From a virus: DNA of 20,628 nt. A program made the position numbers and the translations under genes. The DNA is taken from positions 1-20,628 of IMG/VR virus record IMGVR_UViG_3300023284_000011; one strand, written 5' to 3'. Under the pieces are notes generated by a model. It made no database searches and had not been told where the DNA came from. It worked only from the letters and a program-made list of their open reading frames with translations. This document shows positions 1 through 18,167 of the stretch, in pieces; position 1 is the stretch's first letter, and each line of letters begins with the position of its first letter.

Positions 1-145
1 TGACGAAACAAGTGTATTAGTGAAAGAATTTATCTCTTGTTATTGTCGGCTTAATATTGTTGATGAACCAGCAGAACAATGGCGAAATGCTGAAATGAAA
101 CGTTTGGCTTCTTTACAAGAGTTAATGTATTATGGAGGTATTTGA
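1..145 (+). CDS. Head-tail adaptor (connector), 3' end only
   Basis: This frame is open from the left edge and ends at TGA 143-145, giving 47 visible residues ending in LQELMYYGGI. Its start lies outside the window. It sits immediately upstream of a head-closure-like gene and overlaps that gene's ATG (TGATG), the usual place for the HK97 gp6-like adaptor that docks under the portal in 936 phages. The visible end is mostly helical in composition (RNAEMKRLASLQELM), as expected for the C-terminal helix of such adaptors. The functional call comes mainly from position and from resemblance to 936 gp7; the fragment is too short to prove it. It also carries the GGAGG (134-138) ribosome site of the next gene. 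Confidence 0.6.
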   Translation, partial: DETSVLVKEFISCYCRLNIVDEPAEQWRNAEMKRLASLQELMYYGGI

Positions 146-459
146 TGATATTTTCGCAAGTTACATTGCAAGTAGAGACGACTGTTAAGAAGAAGAACGG
201 TGCAGAAGCTAATGTTATAAAGCCTATCGTTTTACCAGCAGTCAAACAGAGAATTAGTCAGACAAGGCTTGATGAGTTTTCTATGATTGGGCTAGGTAAA
301 AACGTAAGATACGAGCTTAACGGAATCGGAGAAATGGAAGACTTGATTTTCAACTATTTCTTGGACGAAAAAGGCGATACTTTCAAGCGGACAACATGGG
401 AAAGAGACCCTAAGAATAATAAGGTGATTTTAGAGGGAGTCGTGAGCAACGGACTATGA
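145..459 (+). CDS. Head-closure / head-tail joining protein
   Basis: A 104-residue soluble protein. I chose ATG 145 because GGAGG at 134-138 sits 6 bases before it and because it overlaps the upstream stop; an in-frame TTG at 142 is less likely. It is the second gene of the head-tail connector set and fits the 936 gp8 slot, a stopper-type small beta protein that closes the DNA channel between adaptor and tail. No catalytic motif is visible and none is expected. Residues such as ELNGIGEMEDLIFNYFLDE suggest a mixed alpha/beta fold. The end overlaps the next ATG by four bases (ATGA at 456-459), indicating translational coupling. The exact role (stopper or other joining protein) is inferred from order. 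Confidence 0.6.
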   Translation: MIFSQVTLQVETTVKKKNGAEANVIKPIVLPAVKQRISQTRLDEFSMIGLGKNVRYELNGIGEMEDLIFNYFLDEKGDTFKRTTWERDPKNNKVILEGVVSNGL

Positions 460-797
460 GCGAATTTGATTCTTATATAGATTGGTACAACAATTTACTT
501 ACAATGCCTCTAAATGACGTTATTTTAGGCGTTAAGGACACGATAGAAGACAAGACGGTATATTTGTCACTTAGTGACTCAAAGGTGCTTAAAATGGATA
601 ATACGAGCTTTGTCATGGGTTACTATTATCAAGTTGTTTTATCTGTTAAAGATGTTGACGATGAACTTGTAGGACTAGTCGGAGATGTTTTACGAGACGG
701 TTGGAATATGACGAACTGGTCAGAGAATAGCCATTTGTACAATTATACCGGAACGGTTTATTTGCCTTGTGGTGCAGGTGGTCAACCATGGCAATGA
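456..797 (+). CDS. Tail completion / tail terminator-type protein
   Basis: A 113-residue protein that starts in an ATGA overlap with the preceding gene and ends just inside the next. It begins MSEFDSYIDWYNNLLTM and has a C-terminal stretch (SHLYNYTGTVYLPCGAGG) that looks like the last strands of a small beta protein. In 936 phages the third gene after the portal-proximal adaptor has been described as a tail completion or terminator protein; the fourth looks more like HK97 gp10. The assignment between these two slots is not certain from sequence alone. The protein is structural and would act at the head-proximal end of the tail tube, limiting its length and joining it to the capsid. Confidence 0.5.
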   Translation: MSEFDSYIDWYNNLLTMPLNDVILGVKDTIEDKTVYLSLSDSKVLKMDNTSFVMGYYYQVVLSVKDVDDELVGLVGDVLRDGWNMTNWSENSHLYNYTGTVYLPCGAGGQPWQ

Positions 798-1153
798 ATT
801 TACTTAATACAGCAAGCATAGCTAAAGAAATGCAAACTAAAGTAACGGAACGCATGGGCGATTGGTTTGAAGCAGAGTTTAAGGCAAAAGCTAATGCTGC
901 AGCCCGAAGGACTAGATTAATCAGAAGCCATGGTCATACCTATACTTATGCCAGATATCAAAATACTGGGCAATTGTCAAGTAACTTAAAGCAAGTTAAA
1001 AAAGGCGATAAAATAGTAGTAAATGCAGGAACTAGGGCTAATTACACTAGCGGTTATCATGGTATGTATTTCTTAGTTGAAAAAAATGGTATGCAAGACG
1101 TTAAAACAACATTGAAAAAAGGCGCTAATTATGCTAATTCAATGAAATTATAA
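788..1153 (+). CDS. HK97 gp10-like neck / tail completion protein
   Basis: A 121-residue basic protein. ATG 788 is preferred because AGGTGG at 776-781 lies 6 bases upstream. ATG 794 (an ATGA overlap with the previous stop) and TTG 767 are alternatives. The N-terminal helix (SIAKEMQTKVTERMGDWFEAEFKAKANAA), the basic segment RRTRLIRSHGHTYTYARYQNTGQL followed by a short beta region, and the C-terminal helix resemble the HK97 gp10 / SPP1 gp16.1 family that bridges connector and tail. It is the last connector gene; 56 bases separate it from the NPS gene, the first sizeable gap in the operon. Confidence is good that it is a neck/tail completion protein and moderate for the exact family. Confidence 0.6.
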   Translation: MAMNLLNTASIAKEMQTKVTERMGDWFEAEFKAKANAAARRTRLIRSHGHTYTYARYQNTGQLSSNLKQVKKGDKIVVNAGTRANYTSGYHGMYFLVEKNGMQDVKTTLKKGANYANSMKL

Positions 1154-1209
1154 AAGTAGAAAGTGACTTAATTACATTTGATTGAAATTAACAATGATGG
1201 TATTTTTAA

Positions 1210-4014
1210 ATGAGTTTAGATAATTTTAGAAATAGAACGATTTTGTGGGACACAGTCAACAAAGACCTTCCCCAGCCAATACAAATAATGCAAGGCGATG
1301 TCAATGCTAGAACGTTATTAATTAAAATAGTTGATAACGGAACTGAAATTGATTTAACTGGTCATTCATTAAAACTTACATATCAATATACTAACGATAG
1401 CAATTCAGGCTTTATTGTTGTACCTCCTAAGGACTTAATTAAGGGAGAGTTTGTTTTGGTAATTCCTACCGAAATGACAGCGCCAGGAGTTATTGAAGCG
1501 AACTTAATACTTCTCAATAAAGACAAAGATCAAGCCATTGTCAGCAAGAATCTTACATTTATATCAGATAGTTCTACTGTTTCTGATTTAGCTCAAGAAG
1601 TAAATAATAAGATTGATGATTTTACGAAATTATTATTGGAAAATATGCCACAAGTACTGCATAGTGAGTTGAATGATTTACATGCTCAAACTGATTCAAA
1701 TAAGAGCAATATTGAACTTAAAGCCAATCAAACTGATTTAGACAACTTACAGGCTACTGTTGATAAACAAGGTGTTGCAATTTCAACAAAAGCTGAACAA
1801 TCAGAGTTATCAATCACAAATAAAAATGTAACGACTATTCAAGAAACAGCAAAACAAGCTGAAACTGAAGCCAAAAATGCAATGGCAAAGGCTACCGAAG
1901 CACAAGCGAACAGTTTACCACTTAATGGCAATGCGGTCAGTGCAAGCAAACTGGAAACAGCTAGAAAACTTGGAGTAAATCTTCAAGCCTCAGCGTTTCA
2001 AAACTTTGACGGGACTGCTGACGCAACTGATATTGGAGTTTCAGGTGTGCTTCCTATTGCAAATGGAGGTACTTCAACAAGTGACGGAGTTATAAATACA
2101 ACAGCATACGCTAATAGCGCAGACGGTACGGACGGTTTCACAACTGTTTATCCGAATTTGAATTTGTTAGTTAATAGTTCAGCCAAAACCAAAGATGGGT
2201 TCTTTAAAAGTTTCGACAAAGTAGAAAACGGCTATGGAGAAGTTACAATAAAGGGAACTAATACATGGTTTGCTAAAAGCTTAAGAGATGGTTTCTCTAT
2301 TAAGCCTAGAGATTATAAACCCAACGATAAATATACGATGAGTATGGATGTTATGTTCACAAGTTGGAACGCTCCTGCTGGAACAACCATTAGTGGACTT
2401 TGGATCGGTCAGAGGTATACTTCTGGTGGAGGAATAGACTCATGGAAGCATATATGTACTATTGATTTACCTAAAAACCCTAGCAAAATGCTGAACCAAT
2501 GGATAAGAATAACACAAACTTCAACGATACCTCCGTATGAAAACCCTGCTGTTGGTACGCAAGCAGCCATCATGGCTAAATTTACCGGCCCTAGTGAAGG
2601 TAGTTTCACGATTAGAGTTAGAAAGCCAAAACTAGAACAAGGTTCAACTGCTACTCCTTGGATGCCCTCATCTAGCGAAGTAACAACTGCTGACTGGCCA
2701 AAGTATATTGGCTATAGTAATACCCTTAAAATTAATAAAGTTCCAACTGACTTTACTTGGTTTCCCATTGCAGATACAGATTTATCATCTCTTTTTGTCC
2801 ATAAATTAGGTGACGAATCAATTGAAAGTATATCTGTCAGTGGCTCGTTTTCTTCTAAAATTGTTTCTAGAAAAATTGAATCATCAACAATCAAGCATAC
2901 CTTTGTAAGAACAGGAAATACAGTTACACTTACTACAGAAACCAAATCAGTTATTGATCCAACTATCTCGTATGATATCCCACCTGGATATAGACCATTC
3001 AATGATGGCACTGACCCTATTTATGAACAGGTATTGTCCGGAGGGAAAAGTGCAACCATTAGTTCTTCCGACGCAAAATGGCAACCTCGTGCATCTAGTG
3101 GTTTAGATGCAAGATCAGTTGGAACGACTAGTTGGCCAACAAGTGATAGTTTCCCAGTGAAGTTTCCAATTAATAGATATAAACCATATATTGGTCAAGA
3201 TGGGGCAAAAGTAGGTAACGAATATTGGTTATTTGGTGGGTCATCGCCAGACCATAGGTCAACAGATTACATCCACAGGATCGATCCCACAAGTTTTAAA
3301 GAGATTGGGGTAATTAAGCACAATCTTGGACATGCTAACGGCGTTGATTATCGCGATAATGCATTACTTGTCTTTAATGGTAGTGCATATCCACCAGAGA
3401 TTAATTTATATAAAAACCCAGATAACGAAAAGACTGAGTTAAGAGTAAATGATCATGCAAACACTCAGATTATATTTAAAGAAGGTGGCAAGCGACTTCC
3501 TGGTGATGGTTCTGCATGTTTTGGCGTTGATAAAAAGACTGTTTATTATTCTTATACTACTGGCAGAAAACAAGTTGTAATTTTAAAAATTTTACTAGGT
3601 CTTGGCAACAATGATTTATCTGATAAAACTACTGATAAGTCTGATAACAAACATTGGGGTAGTTTCGTAAGTGGCAAAAGCAGTGATGATTACAATGGCA
3701 CTGCTCAAGTAATTGCGTCTTATACTGGTGACATTTTAGGGGATAATCAGCCTCAAGGAATGGCGTTTAACGGAGATTTATATTTAGGCGTATCTATGCA
3801 TGAACCAAAAGCTTATCAATTACGCCTACTTGATAACGGTAGATTTAAAGTCGTAGACATGTATAATGCAGAAACGACTGATGATGAAAATAGGGTCATT
3901 CCTTTAGAACCAGAAATTACACTTATTGATCCGGTAAAACGACGCTTATTTATTGGCTCAAGTAGTGCAACTGATAAAAGTCTATCAAACGTAGCCGAAT
4001 TTACTTTATATTAA
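1210..4014 (+). CDS. Neck passage structure (NPS) protein, BppU-like N-terminus
   Basis: A 934-residue protein. Residues 1 to about 125 resemble the BppU N-terminal domain that attaches accessory proteins to lactococcal phage tails. About 130-235 is a heptad-rich helical stalk. About 240-296 is a tail-fibre-type segment (FDGTADAT, LPIANGGTS). About 310-497 is a module framed by FTTVYPNLNLL (310-320) and ATPWMPSSSEV (481-491), like carbohydrate-binding modules of lactic phage tail proteins. About 655-934 is beta-rich with repeated blade-like strands (NEYWLFGG, GVDYRDNALLVFNG, PQGMAFNGDLYLGV), suggesting a propeller. Its place between neck and MTP genes matches the NPS gene present in some but not all 936 phages, which forms a collar and whiskers. 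The ribosome site is weak (GATGG at 1196-1200). It is probably an accessory adsorption protein; the glycan-binding role is inferred. Confidence 0.8.
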   Translation: MSLDNFRNRTILWDTVNKDLPQPIQIMQGDVNARTLLIKIVDNGTEIDLTGHSLKLTYQYTNDSNSGFIVVPPKDLIKGEFVLVIPTEMTAPGVIEANLILLNKDKDQAIVSKNLTFISDSSTVSDLAQEVNNKIDDFTKLLLENMPQVLHSELNDLHAQTDSNKSNIELKANQTDLDNLQATVDKQGVAISTKAEQSELSITNKNVTTIQETAKQAETEAKNAMAKATEAQANSLPLNGNAVSASKLETARKLGVNLQASAFQNFDGTADATDIGVSGVLPIANGGTSTSDGVINTTAYANSADGTDGFTTVYPNLNLLVNSSAKTKDGFFKSFDKVENGYGEVTIKGTNTWFAKSLRDGFSIKPRDYKPNDKYTMSMDVMFTSWNAPAGTTISGLWIGQRYTSGGGIDSWKHICTIDLPKNPSKMLNQWIRITQTSTIPPYENPAVGTQAAIMAKFTGPSEGSFTIRVRKPKLEQGSTATPWMPSSSEVTTADWPKYIGYSNTLKINKVPTDFTWFPIADTDLSSLFVHKLGDESIESISVSGSFSSKIVSRKIESSTIKHTFVRTGNTVTLTTETKSVIDPTISYDIPPGYRPFNDGTDPIYEQVLSGGKSATISSSDAKWQPRASSGLDARSVGTTSWPTSDSFPVKFPINRYKPYIGQDGAKVGNEYWLFGGSSPDHRSTDYIHRIDPTSFKEIGVIKHNLGHANGVDYRDNALLVFNGSAYPPEINLYKNPDNEKTELRVNDHANTQIIFKEGGKRLPGDGSACFGVDKKTVYYSYTTGRKQVVILKILLGLGNNDLSDKTTDKSDNKHWGSFVSGKSSDDYNGTAQVIASYTGDILGDNQPQGMAFNGDLYLGVSMHEPKAYQLRLLDNGRFKVVDMYNAETTDDENRVIPLEPEITLIDPVKRRLFIGSSSATDKSLSNVAEFTLY

Positions 4015-4060
4015 AGGTGCTTTTAACATCACTTTTATGAATAACGCGTTTAACTTAACT

Positions 4061-4081
4061 TAGTAGACTTTATATCTACTA
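4061..4081 (+). promoter_or_regulatory. Perfect hairpin in the MTP leader
   Basis: TAGTAGA (4061-4067) and TCTACTA (4075-4081) form a perfect 7-bp stem with a 7-base loop. It is followed by an A-rich stretch, not U, so it does not look like an intrinsic terminator on the + strand. It lies 25 bases before the ATG of the most abundant tail protein and upstream of AAAGGA (4091-4096). It could shield the 5' end of a processed MTP mRNA. That role is inference. Confidence 0.45.
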
Positions 4082-4105
4082 AAAAAATAAAAAGGAAAAT
4101 AGAAA

Positions 4106-5011
4106 ATGAAATTAGATTATAACTCACGTGAGATTTTCTTTGGTAATGAAGCTCTAATCGTAGCCGATATGGCCAAGGGAAGTAACGGAAAACCAGTTTT
4201 CACTAACCATAAAATTGTAACTGGTTTGGTATCAGTTAGCGAAATGGAAGACCAAGCGGAAACTAAAAGCTTTCCAGCTGATGACGTGCCAGACCATGGA
4301 GTAAAAAAAGGTGCTACCTTGCTTCAAGGTGAAATGGTATTTATTCAAACAGACCAAGCACTTAAAGAGGATATCTTAGGTCAACAACGAACAGCAAATG
4401 GCTTAGGTTGGTCTCCTACTGGTAATTGGAAAACTAAATGCGTTCAGTACCTTATTAAAGGTCGCAAGCGTGATAAAGTTACAGGAGAATTTATTGACGG
4501 TTATCGTGTAGTCGTTTATCCAAATTTGAGACCAACATCAGAAGCTACAAAAGAATCAGAAACAGATTCAGTAGACGGTGTAGACCCTATCCAATGGACT
4601 TTAGCAGTACAAGCAACTGATTCAGATATTTATTTGAATGGCGATAAAAAAGTTCCTGCTATTGAATACGAAATTTGGGGAGAACAAGCAAAAGATTTTG
4701 TAAAGAAAATGGAAAGTGGACTGTTCATCATGCAACCTGATACGGAACTTGCTGGTGCTGTTACGTTAATTCCTCCAGTTATTCCAAATGTTCAAACGAA
4801 AACCAAAGGGCGTAATGACGGAACAATTGTTTTACCAGCTTTCTTGAAAAACTCTAAAGGGCAAGATGTAAAAGTAACAGCGGTAATTAAAGATGTAAAA
4901 GGAAATATTGTAAGAAACAACGAACTTGCTCCTGGCGTTTATATCGTTACATTCTCTGCTGAAGGCTATCCAGATGTTTCGGTAGGCGTTGCTGTAACTG
5001 ACAAACCCTAG
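4106..5011 (+). CDS. Major tail protein (MTP), short form
   Basis: A 301-residue tail tube protein, closely recognisable as the 936-group MTP (ORF11 of sk1 and p2). It starts MKLDYNSREIFFGNEALIVAD with AAAGGA 9 bases upstream. The N-terminal part (to about residue 210) is the tube domain. The C-terminal part from about 225 (KGRNDGTIVLPAFLKNSKG ... GVYIVTFSAEGYPDVSVGVAV) is an Ig-like domain projecting from the tube. The frame ends at TAG 5009-5011, directly after AAA CCC. A +1 slip on CCC would fuse it to the 208 downstream codons (see the extension), giving a minor 509-residue form. The tube domain polymerises as stacked hexamers around the tape measure. Identification is strong. Confidence 0.92.
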   Translation: MKLDYNSREIFFGNEALIVADMAKGSNGKPVFTNHKIVTGLVSVSEMEDQAETKSFPADDVPDHGVKKGATLLQGEMVFIQTDQALKEDILGQQRTANGLGWSPTGNWKTKCVQYLIKGRKRDKVTGEFIDGYRVVVYPNLRPTSEATKESETDSVDGVDPIQWTLAVQATDSDIYLNGDKKVPAIEYEIWGEQAKDFVKKMESGLFIMQPDTELAGAVTLIPPVIPNVQTKTKGRNDGTIVLPAFLKNSKGQDVKVTAVIKDVKGNIVRNNELAPGVYIVTFSAEGYPDVSVGVAVTDKP

Positions 5012-5026
5012 TGTGCCCGACGGGGC
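5003..5026 (+). promoter_or_regulatory. Programmed +1 frameshift site, MTP to TpeX
   Basis: The MTP frame ends AAA CCC TAG (5003-5011). A tRNA on CCC (5006-5008) can re-pair one base downstream on CCT (5007-5009), turning the stop into C CCT AGT and continuing in the open frame to 5636. A GC hairpin follows 5 bases later (GCCC 5015-5018, loop GACG, GGGC 5023-5026) and could stall the ribosome. CCC before a stop is the same kind of slippery site described for Listeria phage PSA, and frameshifted MTP extensions are known in 936 phages. The -1 frame does not lead into the downstream ORF. Confidence 0.8.
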
Positions 5027-5636
5027 TTACCACGTAGCCTTTGCATATAGCAAAGATGGAAGAGATAGATTCACGACCGTTTATCCTAACTTGAACTTGT
5101 TAGACGGTACTAGAGATTTCAGCGGAAATTGGGCTAATGCAGGTAGTTGGCAAAATGACGGAACGCATGAAGGGCGAACTGTTAAGAAAACAACCGCTCA
5201 ATGGAATGGTATTCATAAAACATTTACTGCACCTAAAGACGGAACATATACGTTCTCAGCTGATGTAAAAGGGTCTGGCGGTAAGTCAAATATGTATAGA
5301 TACGTTTCCGTAAATGGTGGGGGATCAAATACTTTAGTAAAGGATAAAAAACTTGACGATTCATTTGATTGGCAAAGAGATTCCTTCACAGTAAACTTGA
5401 AAGCTGGTGACACTGTTAACCCTAGATATGAAATAAATGCTCCAAATGCAGGTACAACTTTATGGACTGCTGGTCATAAGTGGGAAGAGGGTCCAATTGC
5501 TACTCCTTGGATGCCTTCGTTTAGTGAAGTAACGCCCGAAGATTATCCAAGCTATATCGGAACATACACTGATAATGACTCTAACACACAAAGTACAGAC
5601 CCAGGAAAATATACTTGGAAAAAAATAGTAGAATAA
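5010..5636 (+). CDS. Tail protein extension (TpeX), made as an MTP fusion
   Basis: 208 codons in the +1 frame relative to MTP, ending at TAA 5634-5636. A GTG at 5013 exists but has no ribosome site, so translation by frameshift from MTP is far more likely. The extension starts with AYHVAFAYSKDGRDRFTTVY and ends with ATPWMPSFSEVTPEDYPSYI then a GTYTDN...YTWKK tail. Between them is a beta-rich module (DGTYTFSADVKGSGG, SMYRYVSVNG-type strands) typical of carbohydrate-binding modules of lactic phage tails. Decorating a minority of tube subunits, it could give weak reversible binding to cell-wall polysaccharide before the baseplate engages. The same flanking motifs occur in the NPS protein. The module call is family knowledge; the ligand is unknown. 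Confidence 0.82.
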   Translation, partial: SVPDGAYHVAFAYSKDGRDRFTTVYPNLNLLDGTRDFSGNWANAGSWQNDGTHEGRTVKKTTAQWNGIHKTFTAPKDGTYTFSADVKGSGGKSNMYRYVSVNGGGSNTLVKDKKLDDSFDWQRDSFTVNLKAGDTVNPRYEINAPNAGTTLWTAGHKWEEGPIATPWMPSFSEVTPEDYPSYIGTYTDNDSNTQSTDPGKYTWKKIVE

Positions 5637-5655
5637 ATAAAGGAATATATATAAA

Positions 5656-5931
5656 ATGGCAAAACAATTAAGCACAGCACGTAAATTTAAAATGATTACA
5701 GGTAAAGACCTTTTTCAACAACAAAAGGCAATGGATACAGAACTTAAAAAAGAAGACGGAGAAATTACTGATGTGATGGAGTTCGTTCAATATGGTTTAT
5801 ACTTGGCTCTTTTTCAAGATAACATTGTAAAAGCTAAAAGCGACTTTGCAGACTTTCGTACTAGCTTTGAGTTCGATACTGACGGTAAAGGTCTTAAAGA
5901 ACTCGTCGAACTGTGGCAGAAAGAAATTTAA
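5656..5931 (+). CDS. Tail assembly chaperone 1 (ORF12 type)
   Basis: A 91-residue helical protein starting MAKQLSTARKFKMITGKDLF, recognisable as the 936 ORF12 tape-measure chaperone (gpG equivalent). It lies between the tail tube and tape measure genes, where such chaperones always sit. In the p2 system ORF12 is known from its structure to form oligomers thought to wrap the hydrophobic tape measure before tube assembly. The ribosome site is weak (AAAGGAAT at 5639-5646, 9 bases before the ATG). The gene ends at TAA 5929-5931 and does not overlap the second chaperone gene, unlike the G/GT pair of lambda. Confidence 0.8.
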   Translation: MAKQLSTARKFKMITGKDLFQQQKAMDTELKKEDGEITDVMEFVQYGLYLALFQDNIVKAKSDFADFRTSFEFDTDGKGLKELVELWQKEI

Positions 5932-5950
5932 TGAGCTGAAAGGACTGTAA

Positions 5951-6463
5951 ATGATTTTAAAACATGCAATTAGATACTTAGAACTAACTGGTTCGGACTT
6001 TATTACAGATTTAAAAGACTTTGCAGACCTACAGAAATCTTTTGTCGCTGGTTATATTCCTGATGACTTTACGGAGCAAATGGAGAGCTTTACAGACAAG
6101 TTGTTGATACTTTGGGTAGATTGTAACGGAGGACTGCAAAACGCCTTAGACGACAAAACAGAGCTTCCTACAACTAATGAGTTAATCAATATCTTCTGTA
6201 AGACTGTTTTTATTAAAGAAGAAGAGGAAACGGAAGACGATATGGTCTTCTTTTCTTCTAGTCCATTGATTAAGAAGAAGAAAGATACTGTAAAGGGAAA
6301 TAAAACTTTAGAACTTTTGACTGTTTTAGGCAATAACGAAATTGATATAACGCAGTTCATGGAAATGGAACTAGAACTTGTTTATAAATTAATCGAACTT
6401 ATTGCAGAGAAGAAGAAAGAGGAAAAAGAAAAAGAGAAAAGGCGTAAAAGAAAGGGTATGTAA
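5951..6463 (+). CDS. Tail assembly chaperone 2 (ORF13 type)
   Basis: A 170-residue protein starting MILKHAIRYLELTGSDFITD. The N-terminal 150 residues are mainly helical and acidic (KEEEETEDDM). The last 25 are an extreme charged run of Lys, Glu and Arg ending RRKRKGM. By position it is the gpT-like partner of ORF12, expected to bind the tape measure during assembly; it is not in the virion in related phages. AAAGG (5939-5943) precedes ATG 5951 by 7 bases. Its frame is closed just upstream by TAA 5948-5950, so it must initiate independently. It overlaps the tape measure start by one base (TAATG, 6461-6465). Confidence 0.72.
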   Translation: MILKHAIRYLELTGSDFITDLKDFADLQKSFVAGYIPDDFTEQMESFTDKLLILWVDCNGGLQNALDDKTELPTTNELINIFCKTVFIKEEEETEDDMVFFSSSPLIKKKKDTVKGNKTLELLTVLGNNEIDITQFMEMELELVYKLIELIAEKKKEEKEKEKRRKRKGM

Positions 6464-9222
6464 TGGCAAGTAATGCAACATTTGAGGTCGAGATATACGG
6501 TAATACCACGAAATTCGAGAACTCACTTAAAGGCGTTAATACCGCAATGTCAGGGCTTAGAGGAGAAGCTAAAAACTTAAGAGACGCTCTAAAACTTGAC
6601 CCCACAAATACCGGGAAAATGGCGCAATTGCAAAAGAACTTACAAACGCAGTTGGGCTTATCACGTGACAAAGCAACAAAATTAAAAGAAGAACTTTCTA
6701 ATGTTGACAAAAGTACGTCATCAGGTCAAAAGAAATGGCTACAACTTACCAGAGCTTTAGGCACAGCAGAAACGCAAGCTAACAGGCTAGAGGGCGAAAT
6801 AAAGCAAGTCGAGGGTGCTATTAAATCAGGTTCTTGGCATATTGATGCTAAAATGGACACCAAGGGTGTAAATAGCGGAATTGACGGAATGAAGTCACGC
6901 TTTAGCGGTCTTAGAGAGTTTGCTGTTGGTGCATTTAGGCAAATCGGTGCAAGTGCTGTTAGTGCTGTTGGCAATGGTTTAAGGGGCTGGATATCTGACG
7001 CAATGGACACCCAGACAGCCATGATTGCCTTAAAGAACACGATGAAATTCAAAGGCAGTGGAAAAGATTTTGACTATGTAAGCAATTCTATGCAGAAACT
7101 CGCTAGAGATACAAACGCAAATAGTGAAGATACTTTAAAACTTTCAACAACATTTATCGGTTTAGGTGATAGTGCTAAGTCAGCAGTTAGTAAGACGGAA
7201 GCATTAGTAAAAGCTAACCAAGCGTTTGGTGGTACTGGGAAAGACCTTAAAGGTGTCGCACAGGCTTATGGTCAAATGGCAGCTTCTGGCAAGGTTACTG
7301 CTGAAAATATTGGGCAACTAACTGATAACAATACCGCTCTTGGTGCTTCTTTAAAGGACACTATTATGAAAATGAACCCCTCATTACAGCAATATGGTTC
7401 ATTTAATGAAGCTGTTTCGGCTGGTGCTGTCTCAATGGATATGCTTGATAAGGCTATGCAAAAAACAGCAGACGGTTCAAGCGGTGCTGCAAAGACTATA
7501 AGGGATACTTGGGCTGGTTTTAATGAAGATATGTCGCAAGCATTGCTTCCTACACTTGAGGCTTTAACTCCTGTTATCGATGCTATAATTGATAAAATGG
7601 GTGAGTGGGGTAAAGGTGCTGGTAAAGCCATTGATAGCATTGTTAAGTATGTCAAAGAACTGTGGGGAGCGTTAGAAAAGAATGGCGCTTTAAGTTCTTT
7701 CTCTAAAATTTGGGACGGTTTAAGATCAACTTTTGGTTCAGTTTTAAGTATAATCGGACAACTAATAGAATCATTTGCTGGTGTAGATTCAAAAACTGGC
7801 AAAAGTGCAGGCTCTGTGGAGAGCGTAAGTAAAGCTATTGCTAATTTGGCAAAAGTTTTAGCCGACGTCATAAAGAAAATCGCTGATTTTGCAAAGAAAT
7901 TTAGTGAGAGTAAAGTAGCAATCGATACTTTAAAATGGTCTTTAGCAGCCTTAACAGCAGGTTTTGTAGCTTTTAAAATCGGTTCTGGAATAGTTAGTGC
8001 TATTGGTATTTTCAAGAAGTTACAGACAGTAATTCAAGCAGGAACGGGTGTAATGGCAGCTTTCAATGCTGTTATGGCTATAAACCCATTCGTAGCTCTT
8101 GGTATAGCGATCGCAGCCATTGTTACTGGTTTAGTTTATTTCTTCACTCAAACAGAAACAGGGAAAAAAGTGTGGCAGAGTTTTGTAGACTTCTTATTGC
8201 AGTCAATTGAAGCTATTAAACAGTTCTTTACTGGTTTAGGTGCTTGGTTTGGTGAGTTATGGACTTCCACAGTCGAGGGTACAAAAACCATATGGAACGG
8301 AATAACAGAGTTTTTTAGTGGTTTATGGAACGGGATAGTCACAATTGTAGCTTCCGCTTTCACTACAATAGCTAGTGCAGTAACAGGCGCTTATAACTGG
8401 TTTGTTACAACTTTCCAACCGTTAATAAGTTTTTATCAATCTATGTTTAACCTAATAGGATCAATTATCAATGTAGCTTTTCAACTTATCTTGGCTATTA
8501 TTCGCGGTGCTTACCAATTAGTCATTGGCGCATGGAAAGGCCTATCAGGTTTCTTTGGTGGAATGTTTAACGCTGTTAGTTCAGTAGTTTCGTCAGTATT
8601 CTACGCAATTGGAAGTTTTGCTTCTAGCTCTTGGGGAGTAGTTCGCTCAATATGGAGTGCAGCTTCAGGCTTCTTTAGTGGCATATTCAACTCTGTTCGT
8701 AGCATTGTTAGTGGAGTGTTCAGCGCTTTTGGTGGGTTCGCTTCAAGCGCTTGGGGAGCAATTTCAGGTGTATTTAGTGGAGTTGGCAGCTTCTTTAGTG
8801 GAGTTTTCAATGGTGCTAGAAGTGTAGTTAGTGGAGCGTTCAGTGCCTTTGGTCAGTTCGCCGTTAATGCTTACAATGCAATAACAGGAGCATTTAGTGG
8901 TATTGGCGGTTTCTTTAGTGGAATATTCGGAGGAATCAGTAGCACGATAAATAGCGTTCTTGGTGGCGTAACAAGTACAATCAATAATATATCAGGAGCT
9001 ATTAATGGTATTGCTGGAAAACTTGGCGGACTATTCAAAGGCTCTATGGTAGTAGGCTTAACAGATGTTAATTTATCTTCTAGCGGTTACAGTTTGAGTA
9101 CGAACAGCGTATCAAGCGACAATAGAACATATAACACATTCAACGTACAAGGCGGTGCTGGTCAAGATGTTTCTAACTTAGCACGAGCAATCAGACGAGA
9201 ATTTGAACTAGGGAGGGCTTAA
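6463..9222 (+). CDS. Tape measure protein
   Basis: A 919-residue protein that sets tail length and is ejected ahead of the DNA. Residues 1 to about 130 are helical and charged. About 172-345 match the conserved tape measure domain of Gram-positive siphophages (KLARDTNANSEDTLKLSTTF, GQMAASGKVTAENIGQLTDN). Hydrophobic, potentially membrane-spanning stretches lie near 494-517, 543-561 and 662-680. From residue 696 there are three contiguous 40-residue repeats and the start of a fourth, each beginning GFFxGxFN. The short C-terminal tail (GRTYNTFNVQGG-like, to RREFELGRA) probably docks to Dit/Tal. AAAGGG (6451-6456) precedes the start, which overlaps the chaperone stop. The gene is closed by a TAATG overlap with Dit. 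Confidence 0.92.
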   Translation: MASNATFEVEIYGNTTKFENSLKGVNTAMSGLRGEAKNLRDALKLDPTNTGKMAQLQKNLQTQLGLSRDKATKLKEELSNVDKSTSSGQKKWLQLTRALGTAETQANRLEGEIKQVEGAIKSGSWHIDAKMDTKGVNSGIDGMKSRFSGLREFAVGAFRQIGASAVSAVGNGLRGWISDAMDTQTAMIALKNTMKFKGSGKDFDYVSNSMQKLARDTNANSEDTLKLSTTFIGLGDSAKSAVSKTEALVKANQAFGGTGKDLKGVAQAYGQMAASGKVTAENIGQLTDNNTALGASLKDTIMKMNPSLQQYGSFNEAVSAGAVSMDMLDKAMQKTADGSSGAAKTIRDTWAGFNEDMSQALLPTLEALTPVIDAIIDKMGEWGKGAGKAIDSIVKYVKELWGALEKNGALSSFSKIWDGLRSTFGSVLSIIGQLIESFAGVDSKTGKSAGSVESVSKAIANLAKVLADVIKKIADFAKKFSESKVAIDTLKWSLAALTAGFVAFKIGSGIVSAIGIFKKLQTVIQAGTGVMAAFNAVMAINPFVALGIAIAAIVTGLVYFFTQTETGKKVWQSFVDFLLQSIEAIKQFFTGLGAWFGELWTSTVEGTKTIWNGITEFFSGLWNGIVTIVASAFTTIASAVTGAYNWFVTTFQPLISFYQSMFNLIGSIINVAFQLILAIIRGAYQLVIGAWKGLSGFFGGMFNAVSSVVSSVFYAIGSFASSSWGVVRSIWSAASGFFSGIFNSVRSIVSGVFSAFGGFASSAWGAISGVFSGVGSFFSGVFNGARSVVSGAFSAFGQFAVNAYNAITGAFSGIGGFFSGIFGGISSTINSVLGGVTSTINNISGAINGIAGKLGGLFKGSMVVGLTDVNLSSSGYSLSTNSVSSDNRTYNTFNVQGGAGQDVSNLARAIRREFELGRA
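8548..9000 (+). repeat. 40-residue (120-bp) tandem repeats in the tape measure
   Basis: Units start at 8548, 8668, 8788 and 8908, exactly 120 bp apart. They begin with residues GFFGGMFNAV, GFFSGIFNSV, SFFSGVFNGA and GFFSGIFGGI, and the first three share xSSxVSSxFxAxGxFAxxxW-like spacing. The fourth is partial and drifts into Ser/Asn-rich sequence. Exact phasing implies duplication of a tail-length unit. Confidence 0.8.
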
Positions 9223-14926: not shown

Positions 14927-14955
14927 ATTCTATCAAATTGCTTTTACTTTGTCAA
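14927..14955 (-). promoter_or_regulatory. Sigma-A promoter for the membrane peptide operon
   Basis: TTGACA (14955-14950), 17 bases, TAGAAT (14932-14927) on the - strand. The TGA stop codon of the methylase gene (14954-14952) is inside the -35 hexamer. The -10 is 26 bases before the ATG of the 39-residue peptide. Confidence 0.8.
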
Positions 14956-15845
14956 ATATTAACTCCCTTAACCATAAATAATTTCTCACATTTATCATTT
15001 CTTGTTCCGCCTTGAATGGTGCTACGTGCTTTATCAAAAGAATATACAACTTCAAAACGTTCATCTGAAATTGAATAACTTGAAATTATCACGATATTGG
15101 CCTTAGCTATTTCAAATGCCCAGTTATAAAACTCTTGACTATCAAATGAATTGATATAACTTTCTTGGTAACTACCCTCATAAGGAGGATCAAGATATAA
15201 TATAGCTCCAGAAACTTCGCTAAAATCATGATAACTTTTATTCGTTGCTTTTATTTTATTTAATTGCTGGAGTCGTTCAAGTTGTTGAAGTTGTTGAAGT
15301 TGTTCAAGTTGTTTAAGTTTTTGAAGTTGTTCAAGTTGTTTGTACTTTTCAATCGATCTCTTATATGTTTCGGTCTGTTTATAACCACTAAAAACGTCAT
15401 GCTTTTCGATAATTTCTTTAGCTAGATTATATTTCAAATCTGATTTTTCTTTGTTGTATAAATATCGCAACTTATTATTACCAAAAGAGTTTACTAGCAA
15501 CTTCAAAAAATCATCTGTCGTCTTGTTTTCTTTCGCTTCAATCTCTAAAAACTCCGTACGTGAAACAATAAGAGTTTTTATCCACTCACGGTCTTGTGAT
15601 ATAACTCGTTCAAATGCGTTGGTTATATCCTTGTCCAAGTCATTATAATGCACTTCTAAGCCATTTAAAACACATTCGGCTGTAATTGCTCCACCACCTC
15701 CGAAGATGTCGTATATCGGCTTATCTGTGCCAAAGTTTTGTTTGATAATTTCAATAATCTTCTTGCTTATCTTTTTCTTGCTCCCTTGGTACGGTAGTCC
15801 AATCGGTCTACCTTTTCTGATTTTCTTCTCGTCTAAATTAAGCAC
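14952..15845 (-). CDS. D12-class adenine-N6 DNA methyltransferase
   Basis: A 297-residue Dam/DpnM-type enzyme. Motif X is YQGSKKKIS (19-27), motif I DIFGGGG (46-52, S-adenosylmethionine binding), motif IV DPPY (219-222, catalytic); the order and spacing fit the alpha/D12 class. It transfers a methyl group to adenine N6 in a short DNA site, probably protecting phage DNA from a host restriction enzyme that recognises GATC-like sites; the target is not readable. Residues 171-197 are nine Leu-x-x triplets, inserted in the region between motifs I and IV where this class carries its target-recognition part. Start GTG 15845 has AAGG 4 bases upstream and overlaps the Cys-rich gene by 8 bases. No cognate nuclease is seen. 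Confidence 0.9.
   Translation of the reverse strand: MLNLDEKKIRKGRPIGLPYQGSKKKISKKIIEIIKQNFGTDKPIYDIFGGGGAITAECVLNGLEVHYNDLDKDITNAFERVISQDREWIKTLIVSRTEFLEIEAKENKTTDDFLKLLVNSFGNNKLRYLYNKEKSDLKYNLAKEIIEKHDVFSGYKQTETYKRSIEKYKQLEQLQKLKQLEQLQQLQQLERLQQLNKIKATNKSYHDFSEVSGAILYLDPPYEGSYQESYINSFDSQEFYNWAFEIAKANIVIISSYSISDERFEVVYSFDKARSTIQGGTRNDKCEKLFMVKGVNI
15255..15335 (-). repeat. 9-bp tandem repeat encoding (Leu-x-x)9 in the methylase
   Basis: Nine consecutive triplets LEQ LQK LKQ LEQ LQQ LQQ LER LQQ LNK. The first seven use CTT for Leu and mostly CAA/GAA after it, so the DNA is a near-perfect 9-bp repeat (CTTCAACAA type); the last two use CTC and TTA. Such a tract can gain or lose in-frame units by slippage. 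Confidence 0.9.
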
Positions 15846-17242: not shown

Positions 17243-17596
17243 CTAGAAAGGTAGTTCCGATTCATTAACTTCAATCGGTTCAGAACCACCAAATAAGTCT
17301 TGCTTAGCTTGTGCTTGACTATCATTAGAGATAAATACTTTTTCAACTGTTGGGAAAACAAAGTTGTAATTTACGTATTCGCCTGATTCCTTAGCTTGTA
17401 CGCGACCGCTGATCGTTACGACGTCACCTAATTGAATGAAGTCAGGCAAGAACGCTGAACCGTAAGCAACTTTTACGTTAGAACCCTTTTCTTTTTCAAA
17501 CAAAGGAACTGAAATAATTTTCTTATCGCCTTTTGCTGTGCTTACTGTACGTGTGTTTTTTTCGTTTACTTGCGTTGTAACTGTGATAATTGCCAT
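17243..17596 (-). CDS. Single-stranded DNA-binding protein (ORF34 type)
   Basis: 117 residues from ATG 17596, with AAAGGAG 9 bases upstream. The sequence (MAIITVTTQVNEKNTRTVST ... LGDVVTISGRVQAKESGEYV) is the p2 ORF34 kind of SSB, an OB-fold protein distinct from bacterial SSB, with an acidic flexible end finishing ESELPF. That end resembles the SSB C-terminal tip (DDIPF) used to recruit partner enzymes. It would coat ssDNA during phage replication and assist Sak3. It lies 4 bases downstream of sak3, an established pair in 936 phages. Strong call. Confidence 0.88.
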   Translation of the reverse strand: MAIITVTTQVNEKNTRTVSTAKGDKKIISVPLFEKEKGSNVKVAYGSAFLPDFIQLGDVVTISGRVQAKESGEYVNYNFVFPTVEKVFISNDSQAQAKQDLFGGSEPIEVNESELPF

Positions 17597-17600
17597 TTAA

Positions 17601-18167
17601 TTATTCTCCTTTTTTCGCTTCTTGCTGTGCTTTCCAAATTGTCATGATATCAAAGATTTCTTTTTTTGTCTTTGTTTTCAAGTTCTCAATGTTTTCATAT
17701 CCTAGCTGTTCAGCTCGTTTGATAAGTGGTTGAATTTCACGAAGTCGTTGCTTTTCAGCTTCCAATTCTTTCTGCTCTTCTGTCATGTCAGGAAGGTCTT
17801 CATTTGCGTAGATGTATAGCCCTAAACCATGACGAGCAATTGCCTTAACTAGTCCGCGTTGAATGGCTTTGTTAACATCCATTGAAGTCACTTTTTCAAG
17901 CGGGATAGATTGATTACGATAGTCCATCACAGGAAGGTATTCGATATGCTCTAAACCCTCAATAGTCATACCAACCTTAACCCATGCTGTACGACCGTCT
18001 GTATGATAGTTTAAACCTTGCTCATTTTCATAAACTTTACTATTTGCTTCAGGATAAACTTTTTTTACCTCAGACCAAGCGAACGCCCAACTCAGATAGT
18101 CAAGATTATTCTTTTTACTTTTTTTGTCATTAACATTAATGATGCTTAAGGTTTCAAATACGCTCAT
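17601..18167 (-). CDS. sak3: Sak3 single-strand annealing recombinase (DUF1071)
   Basis: 188 residues starting MSVFETLSIINVNDKKSKKN. The core YLSWAFAWSEVKKVYPEA, LNYHTDGRTAWVKVG, HIEYLPVMDYRNQSI and DVNKAIQRGLVKAIARHGLG is the DUF1071/Sak3 signature. The p2 homologue (ORF35) has been reported as an ATPase involved in recombination and in sensitivity to the abortive infection system AbiK, with mutations escaping AbiK. The C-terminal 60 residues are charged and helical (EEQKELEAEKQRLREIQPLI). It starts in an ATGA overlap with a 36-residue gene. It would anneal complementary ssDNA during phage recombination, working with the SSB. The AbiK link is family knowledge and not read from this sequence. 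Confidence 0.9.
   Translation of the reverse strand: MSVFETLSIINVNDKKSKKNNLDYLSWAFAWSEVKKVYPEANSKVYENEQGLNYHTDGRTAWVKVGMTIEGLEHIEYLPVMDYRNQSIPLEKVTSMDVNKAIQRGLVKAIARHGLGLYIYANEDLPDMTEEQKELEAEKQRLREIQPLIKRAEQLGYENIENLKTKTKKEIFDIMTIWKAQQEAKKGE

Follow-up and report, generated by a model that had tools for sequence, protein, structure and literature searches.

Crutz-Le Coq et al. reportedly described in 2002, in the proteins gpl12 and gpl20 of phage bIL170, a hypervariable domain of 110 to 150 amino acids (aa) lying between two conserved motifs of ∼20 amino acids. This domain is said to be common to Lactococcus and Streptococcus phage proteins, which is in substance the finding presented here, and the 2002 account is said to have been made without structures, carbohydrate-binding module (CBM) identity, TpeX, or a census. 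The annotation of l12 in GenBank ("central domain similar to variable domains found in late ...") fits this description. Among 113 phages, Hayes et al. (2019) found CBMs in the neck passage structure protein (NPS) and in TpeX, the extension of the major tail protein (MTP), reported that two of them bind the host, and proposed shuffling (PMC6669499). In the P335 phages TP901-1, Tuc2009, and PhiLC3, residues 1-440 and 588-700 of NPS are conserved and a differing CBM fold lies between them, which is the same cassette; the accessible part of that 2022 study covers three phages and one carrier protein, without DNA analysis (PMC9692632). BppA-like CBMs have further been described in the Tals of Streptococcus thermophilus phages (PMC9437275), and Smug et al. 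(2023) likewise reported ongoing domain exchange in the NPS of Lactococcus phages, although the example in the part of the text at hand is a C-terminal replacement without a conserved-end cassette (PMC10684548). The principle of a variable CBM between constant parts is already known for these phages, and the finding is mostly in print. What is new here are the DNA-level breakpoints, the quantification of reciprocal mosaics, the census, and a neck protein with a KSY1-like C-terminal domain; a limited search of the accessible parts of open-licence literature found no DNA-level crossover map, and a search on the motif letters found no paper.

RESULTS

The window, that is, the whole stretch of DNA that was analyzed, is a virus record of 20,628 bases and corresponds to the late region of a Lactococcus phage of the 936 group (Skunavirus) (Table 1). 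DNA is shared with its positions 1200-5640 in 433 of 50,697 phage records, 419 of those 433 being named Lactococcus, and genes for Dit, a baseplate (Tal-position) protein, a receptor-binding protein, and an amidase lie beyond TpeX. As in the neck passage structures of 936 and P335 phages, the NPS has a BppU-like N-terminal domain (BppU_N, aa 10-147, E = 1.8e-23), and its gene (1210-4014) stands upstream of MTP (4106), as in 936 phages; the protein matches the neck passage structure family PHROG 2370 at E = 9.4e-224 and CBM_4_9_1 "BppA domain 1" (PF22637) at aa 327-473 (E = 2e-23). TpeX matches CBM_4_9 weakly (E = 0.00047, under the Pfam curated cut-off). Like the 936 phages of Hayes et al., the window has the same two proteins, the relation to BppA, and a conserved C-terminal stretch adjoining the variable CBM; unlike most of them, it has CBMs in both NPS and TpeX, a combination that was seldom met by Hayes et al. 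An extra KSY1-like C terminus on the NPS also sets it apart. The accessible part of their study gives no DNA breakpoints and does not set the ends of NPS against those of TpeX (PMC6669499). Elsewhere in the window, a D12-class adenine methyltransferase (14952-15845, - strand) contains a Leu/Gln-rich low-complexity stretch, QLEQLQKLKQLEQLQQLQQLERLQQL, in the middle of the protein.

Table 1. Features of the window referred to in the text
Feature	Position	Strand	Remarks
NPS, neck passage structure protein, 934 aa	1210..4014	+	BppU_N, CBM_4_9_1, PHROG 2370
NPS cassette left conserved end, FTTVYPNLNLL	2137..2169	+	shared similarity starts ∼15 codons upstream
NPS interior, Tuc2009/ul36 BppA-type CBM	2170..2649	+	interior group 1
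NPS cassette right conserved end	2650..2703	+	ATPWMPSSSEVTTADWPK
NPS C-terminal part	2872..4011	+	78% identity with a baseplate/tail protein, gp068, of Lactococcus phage KSY1
MTP, major tail protein with C-terminal domain	4106..5011	+	L_lac_phage_MSP E = 5.6e-113; Phage_tube_C E = 1.2e-37
Presumed +1 frameshift site, AAA CCC TAG (5003-5011)	5003..5026	+	followed by GCCCGACGGGGC at 5015-5026
TpeX (MTP extension) reading frame	5013..5636	+	PHROG 5983 E = 1.2e-72
TpeX cassette left conserved end, FTTVYPNLNLL	5070..5102	+	
TpeX interior, predicted CBM-like beta-sandwich	5103..5498	+	interior group 0; model pLDDT 83, Z 12.6 (residues 27-161)
TpeX cassette right conserved end	5499..5552	+	ATPWMPSFSEVTPEDYPS
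Phage single-stranded DNA-binding protein (SSB)	17243..17596	-	PF16773 E = 2.2e-57
Sak single-strand annealing protein (SSAP)	17601..18167	-	PF06378 SSAP_Sak E = 3.5e-38

TpeX is presumably made by a +1 shift at AAA CCC TAG and not from its own GTG start; MTP ends with a CCC-stop, and the extension is open in the +1 frame. TpeX and such a shift, at a CCC.UAG shifty stop, have been shown for a relative, and an MTP-TpeX fusion was seen by Western blotting in virions of PhiC0139 (PMC4759559). The heptamer AAACCCT together with the 12-mer GCCCGACGGGGC occurs in 21 of 24 loci with a TpeX frame. This 12-mer, a perfect 4-bp hairpin that also encodes a conserved PDGA, is exact in those 21 loci and in 0 of 51 loci without a TpeX frame; the MTP stop at the shift site varies between TAG, TGA, and TAA. 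The hairpin may stimulate the shift; the words hairpin, stem, and pseudoknot are absent from PMC4759559, and the stretch after the shift site showed no unusually stable folding compared with shuffled sequence (z = -0.98).

The C-terminal part of the NPS (∼380 residues) makes this a neck protein that bears the baseplate domain of another phage. It was found in 4 of 50,697 phage records (two each for KSY1 and r1t, the r1t match covering 95 residues only) and in three IMG/VR loci. A search of solved structures with it gave no matches, and we claim no fold for it, since the prediction was built from two sequences and reached a mean pLDDT of 29.

An earlier note on this DNA had claimed that both proteins begin a module with FTTVYPNLNLL and carry ATPWMP near its end, that 18 bases are identical between the two right ends, and that the interiors nevertheless differ. 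Both motifs are present where they had been placed, and the right end common to the two proteins can be written ATPWMPSxSEVT. The 18 identical bases, TGCTACTCCTTGGATGCC (2649-2666 and 5498-5515), are likewise seen and sit within a larger 77-nucleotide (nt) repeat of 75% identity (2635-2711 and 5484-5560). The likeness of the NPS and TpeX ends is far beyond chance. By eye, the two codings of FTTVYPNLNLL (2137-2169 and 5070-5102) differ at 5 of 33 bases, all in third codon positions, and these silent differences rule out that one module was recently copied within the phage. Between the ends, no homology was detectable: a search with the TpeX protein against its own record reached the NPS at the two ends only (E = 2.5e-9 at 2587-2766 and 1.6e-6 at 2101-2178), and a profile comparison of the interior families of NPS (group 1) and TpeX (group 0) gave a probability of 0.3%.

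Both proteins are related to BppA, to different extents. The NPS module aligns end to end with the crystallized Tuc2009 BppA (PDB 5e7t_B; E = 1.5e-104, query residues 1-220), so that homology spans junction and CBM, and its interior is 79% identical to that of the Tuc2009 locus and 78% to that of the ul36 locus. TpeX matches 5e7t_B by sequence at both ends only (residues 6-49 and 149-204), where the BppA junction sequences lie. These alignments place a BppA frame in both proteins and a BppA interior in NPS only. In the model of TpeX, built from 33 sequences (mean pLDDT 83, pTM 0.68; mean pLDDT 59 for residues 31-40), a beta-sandwich of predicted CBM fold occupies the space between the ends. 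The best Foldseek match of this model is 5e7t_B (E = 1.1e-10, TMq 0.63), and chains containing CBMs match its residues 27-161 with Z up to 12.6 (rmsd 2.8, 130 residues aligned). The fold search also matched structures of insecticidal and clostridial toxins through a common beta-sandwich domain; we attach no meaning to these matches. The N- and C-terminal segments of BppA form a junction that anchors its CBM (PMC6669499). Since the model places strands before the sandwich (residues 5-11) and after it (181-187 and 201-204), the conserved ends are, by comparison with Tuc2009 BppA, most likely the two halves of such a junction domain. The model and its CBM-like structure matches rule out a foldless linker as the interior, in line with the earlier note, which had expected a folded domain; on the NPS side the interior is a near homologue of a solved CBM protein. 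We read both interiors as folded, predicted carbohydrate-binding modules that would bind sugar.

For comparison across phages, loci found with both window modules were combined with 24 named phage regions, yielding 146 left ends. The right end was recognized by pattern in 139 of them, which reduce to 104 distinct modules; of the seven left out of the statistics, three have variant right ends by eye (L117, L136, and L147) and four are incomplete, because the sequence stretch ends (L028 and L056, which come from one contig, and L039) or a stop intervenes (L132). The sample is biased in that it was collected with window-derived peptides and requires the left-end pattern for entry. It gives 5,356 module pairs, which share modules and hence are not independent, with both flanks measurable in 4,278. 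TpeX modules have no upstream flank inside the reading frame and so stand outside the pair sets (A to C); they were compared separately.

Clustering at 40% identity and 70% coverage divided the interiors into 20 groups, a count that ranges from 14 to 21 with the cut-off. About 20 interior families are thus distributed among NPS, TpeX, BppA, and Tal/antireceptor proteins of Lactococcus and S. thermophilus phages, and 11 of the 12 groups with at least two members are found in more than one carrier context. By carrier, as labeled with our own patterns on the downstream sequence, we count 8 groups in NPS (21 modules), 3 in TpeX (9), 8 in BppA (16), 11 in collagen-type Tal/antireceptor proteins (27), and 13 in unlabeled carriers (26). 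When the 12 larger groups were compared by profile, they resembled one another little; the strongest pairs are 0/8 (88.7%), 3/9 (79.8%), 2/3 (54.8%, over 16 columns), and 2/9 (52.2%, over 16 columns), and some groups are therefore remote relatives. In three BppA-like proteins (L017, L018, and L019), two tandem cassettes with group 0 and group 1 interiors are joined by a shortened junction, LTANYPNLNLL, which brings the two interior types of the window together in one protein.

The earlier note had further proposed a cassette whose interior is exchanged between conserved ends, and had suggested looking in other phages for the same ends with different interiors. Such modules were found, and the swaps, which support the cassette reading, run in both directions: (i) where the carrier is the same (both outer flanks at least 90% identical in nt), 74 of 101 pairs carry interiors of different groups, which in these 74 pairs (47 modules) share a median of 44% nt over aligned codons and 21% aa; and (ii) where the interior is the same (at least 80% nt), 60 of 98 pairs (43 modules) place it in unrelated outer flanks. 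Identity profiles in 15-base bins, computed with slightly different cut-offs (209 and 60 pairs), stay at ∼82 to 93% in the flanks as far as the inner border of the left end and then fall to ∼30%, with the right side mirrored; the profile of the shared-interior pairs is inverted.

The modules of the window behave in the same way. Its NPS is 89 to 97% identical in nt to ten other Skunavirus NPS genes upstream of the cassette and 69 to 94% in the ends, and the interior is 4 to 48% identical to these ten in global alignment, where shuffled sequence gives a mean of 12 and a maximum of 41. The NPS of L017/L058, a contig on which a BppA-like gene is also found, agrees with the window NPS at 93% nt upstream, 98% in the junction, 100% in the left end, and 92% in the interior, and the two part after the right end, where the window enters the KSY1 gp068-like domain. 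TpeX has outer flanks 83 to 95% identical to those of LP9210, 51701, and CHPC965 and interiors of 10 to 14% in global alignment, which is background level. The closest NPS and TpeX interiors (84% DNA identity) lie in different phages. There is no support for interiors having passed directly from one of the two proteins to the other in a single phage. In the three loci with typed interiors in both proteins (L172, L231, and the window), the two differ in all three, which is uninformative, as the chance of differing, estimated by hand from type frequencies, is ∼0.83 for each.

Fourfold silent sites locate the transitions more finely. In same-carrier pairs, silent identity is 0.91, 0.87, 0.74, and 0.61 at codons -50 to -30, -30 to -15, -15 to -8, and -8 to 0 before the left motif, and 0.61, 0.81, 0.80, and 0.92 at codons 0 to 6, 6 to 12, 12 to 18, and 18 to 25 from the start of the right motif; in shared-interior pairs, it climbs on the left side through 0.29, 0.48, and 0.63 to 0.80 inside the interior. 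Intermediate values inside the ends in both pair sets fit crossovers scattered through the ends. When modules were bootstrapped (300 replicates), the ends gave 0.67/0.71 versus 0.89/0.91 for the flanks, an order that was reversed in no replicate. The 27 same-carrier pairs with interiors of the same group dip in the ends too (0.74 to 0.80 on the left, 0.66 at codons 0 to 6 on the right), which may reflect earlier exchanges within a group or could stem from faster silent change there. In pairs unrelated both inside and outside, the ends share 0.62 to 0.63 of fourfold sites, compared with 0.34 to 0.35 expected from codon usage. The observed share equals that inside interiors at 60 to 70% aa identity; the ends are hence of more recent common ancestry than the sequence on either side.

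A census of 74 loci fetched by MTP, plus the window, was independent of the cassette in its selection. An NPS frame was found in 40 of these loci, with the left end in 20 of the 40 and both ends in 19, comprising seven interior types. The other 20, all in Skunavirus loci (e.g., L181, L188, L205, and L211), may belong to the groups to which beta-helix or esterase-CBM folds have been assigned (PMC6669499). A TpeX frame is present in 24 loci, with the left end found by pattern in 17 and, by eye, as one-residue variants in the other 7; the resulting 24 of 24 is not independent of the left end, because these frames are recognized by the sequence adjoining it. For the right end of TpeX, a script assigned 16 loci to six types, 7 more loci show it by eye, and one is incomplete. 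Two interior types occur in both proteins (in 7 NPS and 7 TpeX loci, and in 2 NPS loci and 1 TpeX locus), and 9 of the 75 loci have both genes. Absences are lower bounds, some loci being fragmentary. One contig, IMGVR_UViG_3300023220_000015 (L028/L056/L163), has an NPS module identical to that of the window, with MTP at 94% and TpeX at 96% over the available stretches; on these sequences, recombination between NPS and MTP within one population is possible.

DISCUSSION

In this study, we followed two short conserved ends in a neck and a tail protein of one Skunavirus across related phages, and we are confident that NPS and TpeX carry BppA-type adhesion cassettes in which homologous (homeologous) recombination, with its crossovers in the ends, replaces the interiors. 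In the mechanism we propose, each protein would bear a variable beta-sandwich of ∼115 to 160 residues held in a short conserved junction, and this junction would dock any interior onto the carrier protein, making the interiors plug-compatible. Crossovers inside the conserved end segments would then swap interiors between phages and prophages of Lactococcus during co-infection, and the shared interiors suggest that S. thermophilus phages take part. The phage-encoded Sak annealing protein, which the window carries together with an SSB, probably assists as the candidate recombinase, given that phage Rad52-like proteins, including the Sak group, perform relaxed homologous recombination on short diverged sequence (PMC3945230). 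The outcome would be a virion with different adhesion modules at neck and tube, which would presumably add weak multivalent contacts to the host cell-wall polysaccharide and could benefit adsorption.

Exchange might also be real and yet proceed by illegitimate recombination followed by selection for folded proteins, with the ends conserved as protein only. The ends are under strong protein constraint, selection can yield mosaic joints at domain borders, and no conserved recombinase motif was found in 936 phages, according to the accessible part of PMC4759559. What makes this unlikely in our judgment are the silent sites: even in otherwise unrelated cassettes, the ends agree well beyond the codon-usage expectation, and the graded fall of silent identity through the ends is the signature of homology-directed crossovers. 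A separate question is whether the interiors bind glycans at all or serve as structural spacers or assembly domains, a reading to which the reported non-essential nature of the TP901-1 NPS (PMC6669499) would lend itself. We rate it as quite improbable, as the folds match carbohydrate-binding modules, BppA enhances the binding of Tuc2009 (PMC9692632), and like modules of other interior types bind host cells at the NPS and TpeX positions in two relatives (PMC6669499); in our sample these published binders fall in group 2 (2R06A TpeX) and group 15 (PhiA.16 NPS).

Without any exchange, the two modules could be ancient paralogues: diversifying selection on point mutations would have driven the interiors apart, and structural constraint would have held the ends. 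The silent differences between the ends of the window's two copies would fit such an origin, and both interior groups could be remote homologues within one beta-sandwich superfamily, with 5e7t_B being the top fold match of TpeX. Yet same-carrier flanks keep 0.91 silent identity while their interiors drop to ∼21% aa, and near-identical interiors stand in unrelated carriers; gradual divergence cannot yield both. The mosaics and silent sites thus refute paralogue divergence as the main process, leaving the account as a whole very doubtful; for the most ancient ties between interior families it may hold. A dedicated switching system (a diversity-generating retroelement, an invertible segment, or a site-specific recombinase) would explain why interior types alternate so sharply while the ends stay constant but is the least credible explanation, for within window positions 1-7000 neither interior has a further copy or a template beyond short repeats and the breakpoints are spread over the ends and not fixed, even if a recombinase could lie elsewhere in the genome, the Pfam and PHROG scans having covered 12 and 4 window proteins.

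Homologous replacement of the interiors leads to a bolder proposal, which in our view might just as well prove wrong as right: the two ends would act as a shared DNA crossover address through which ∼20 unrelated or very remote CBM families, pooled among neck, tube, baseplate, and Tal/antireceptor proteins of phages that infect two bacterial genera, are traded by Sak-type relaxed recombination. If this is true, one adhesion module may land at any of several positions on the virion. The ends most likely serve as a structural socket and, on the silent-site evidence, as the place of recombination, which gives a base-resolution view of the way in which adhesion surfaces are refitted in dairy phages. 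How phage adhesion evolves thereby becomes testable, and the conserved ends aid the annotation of modules that are hard to recognize by their interior alone.
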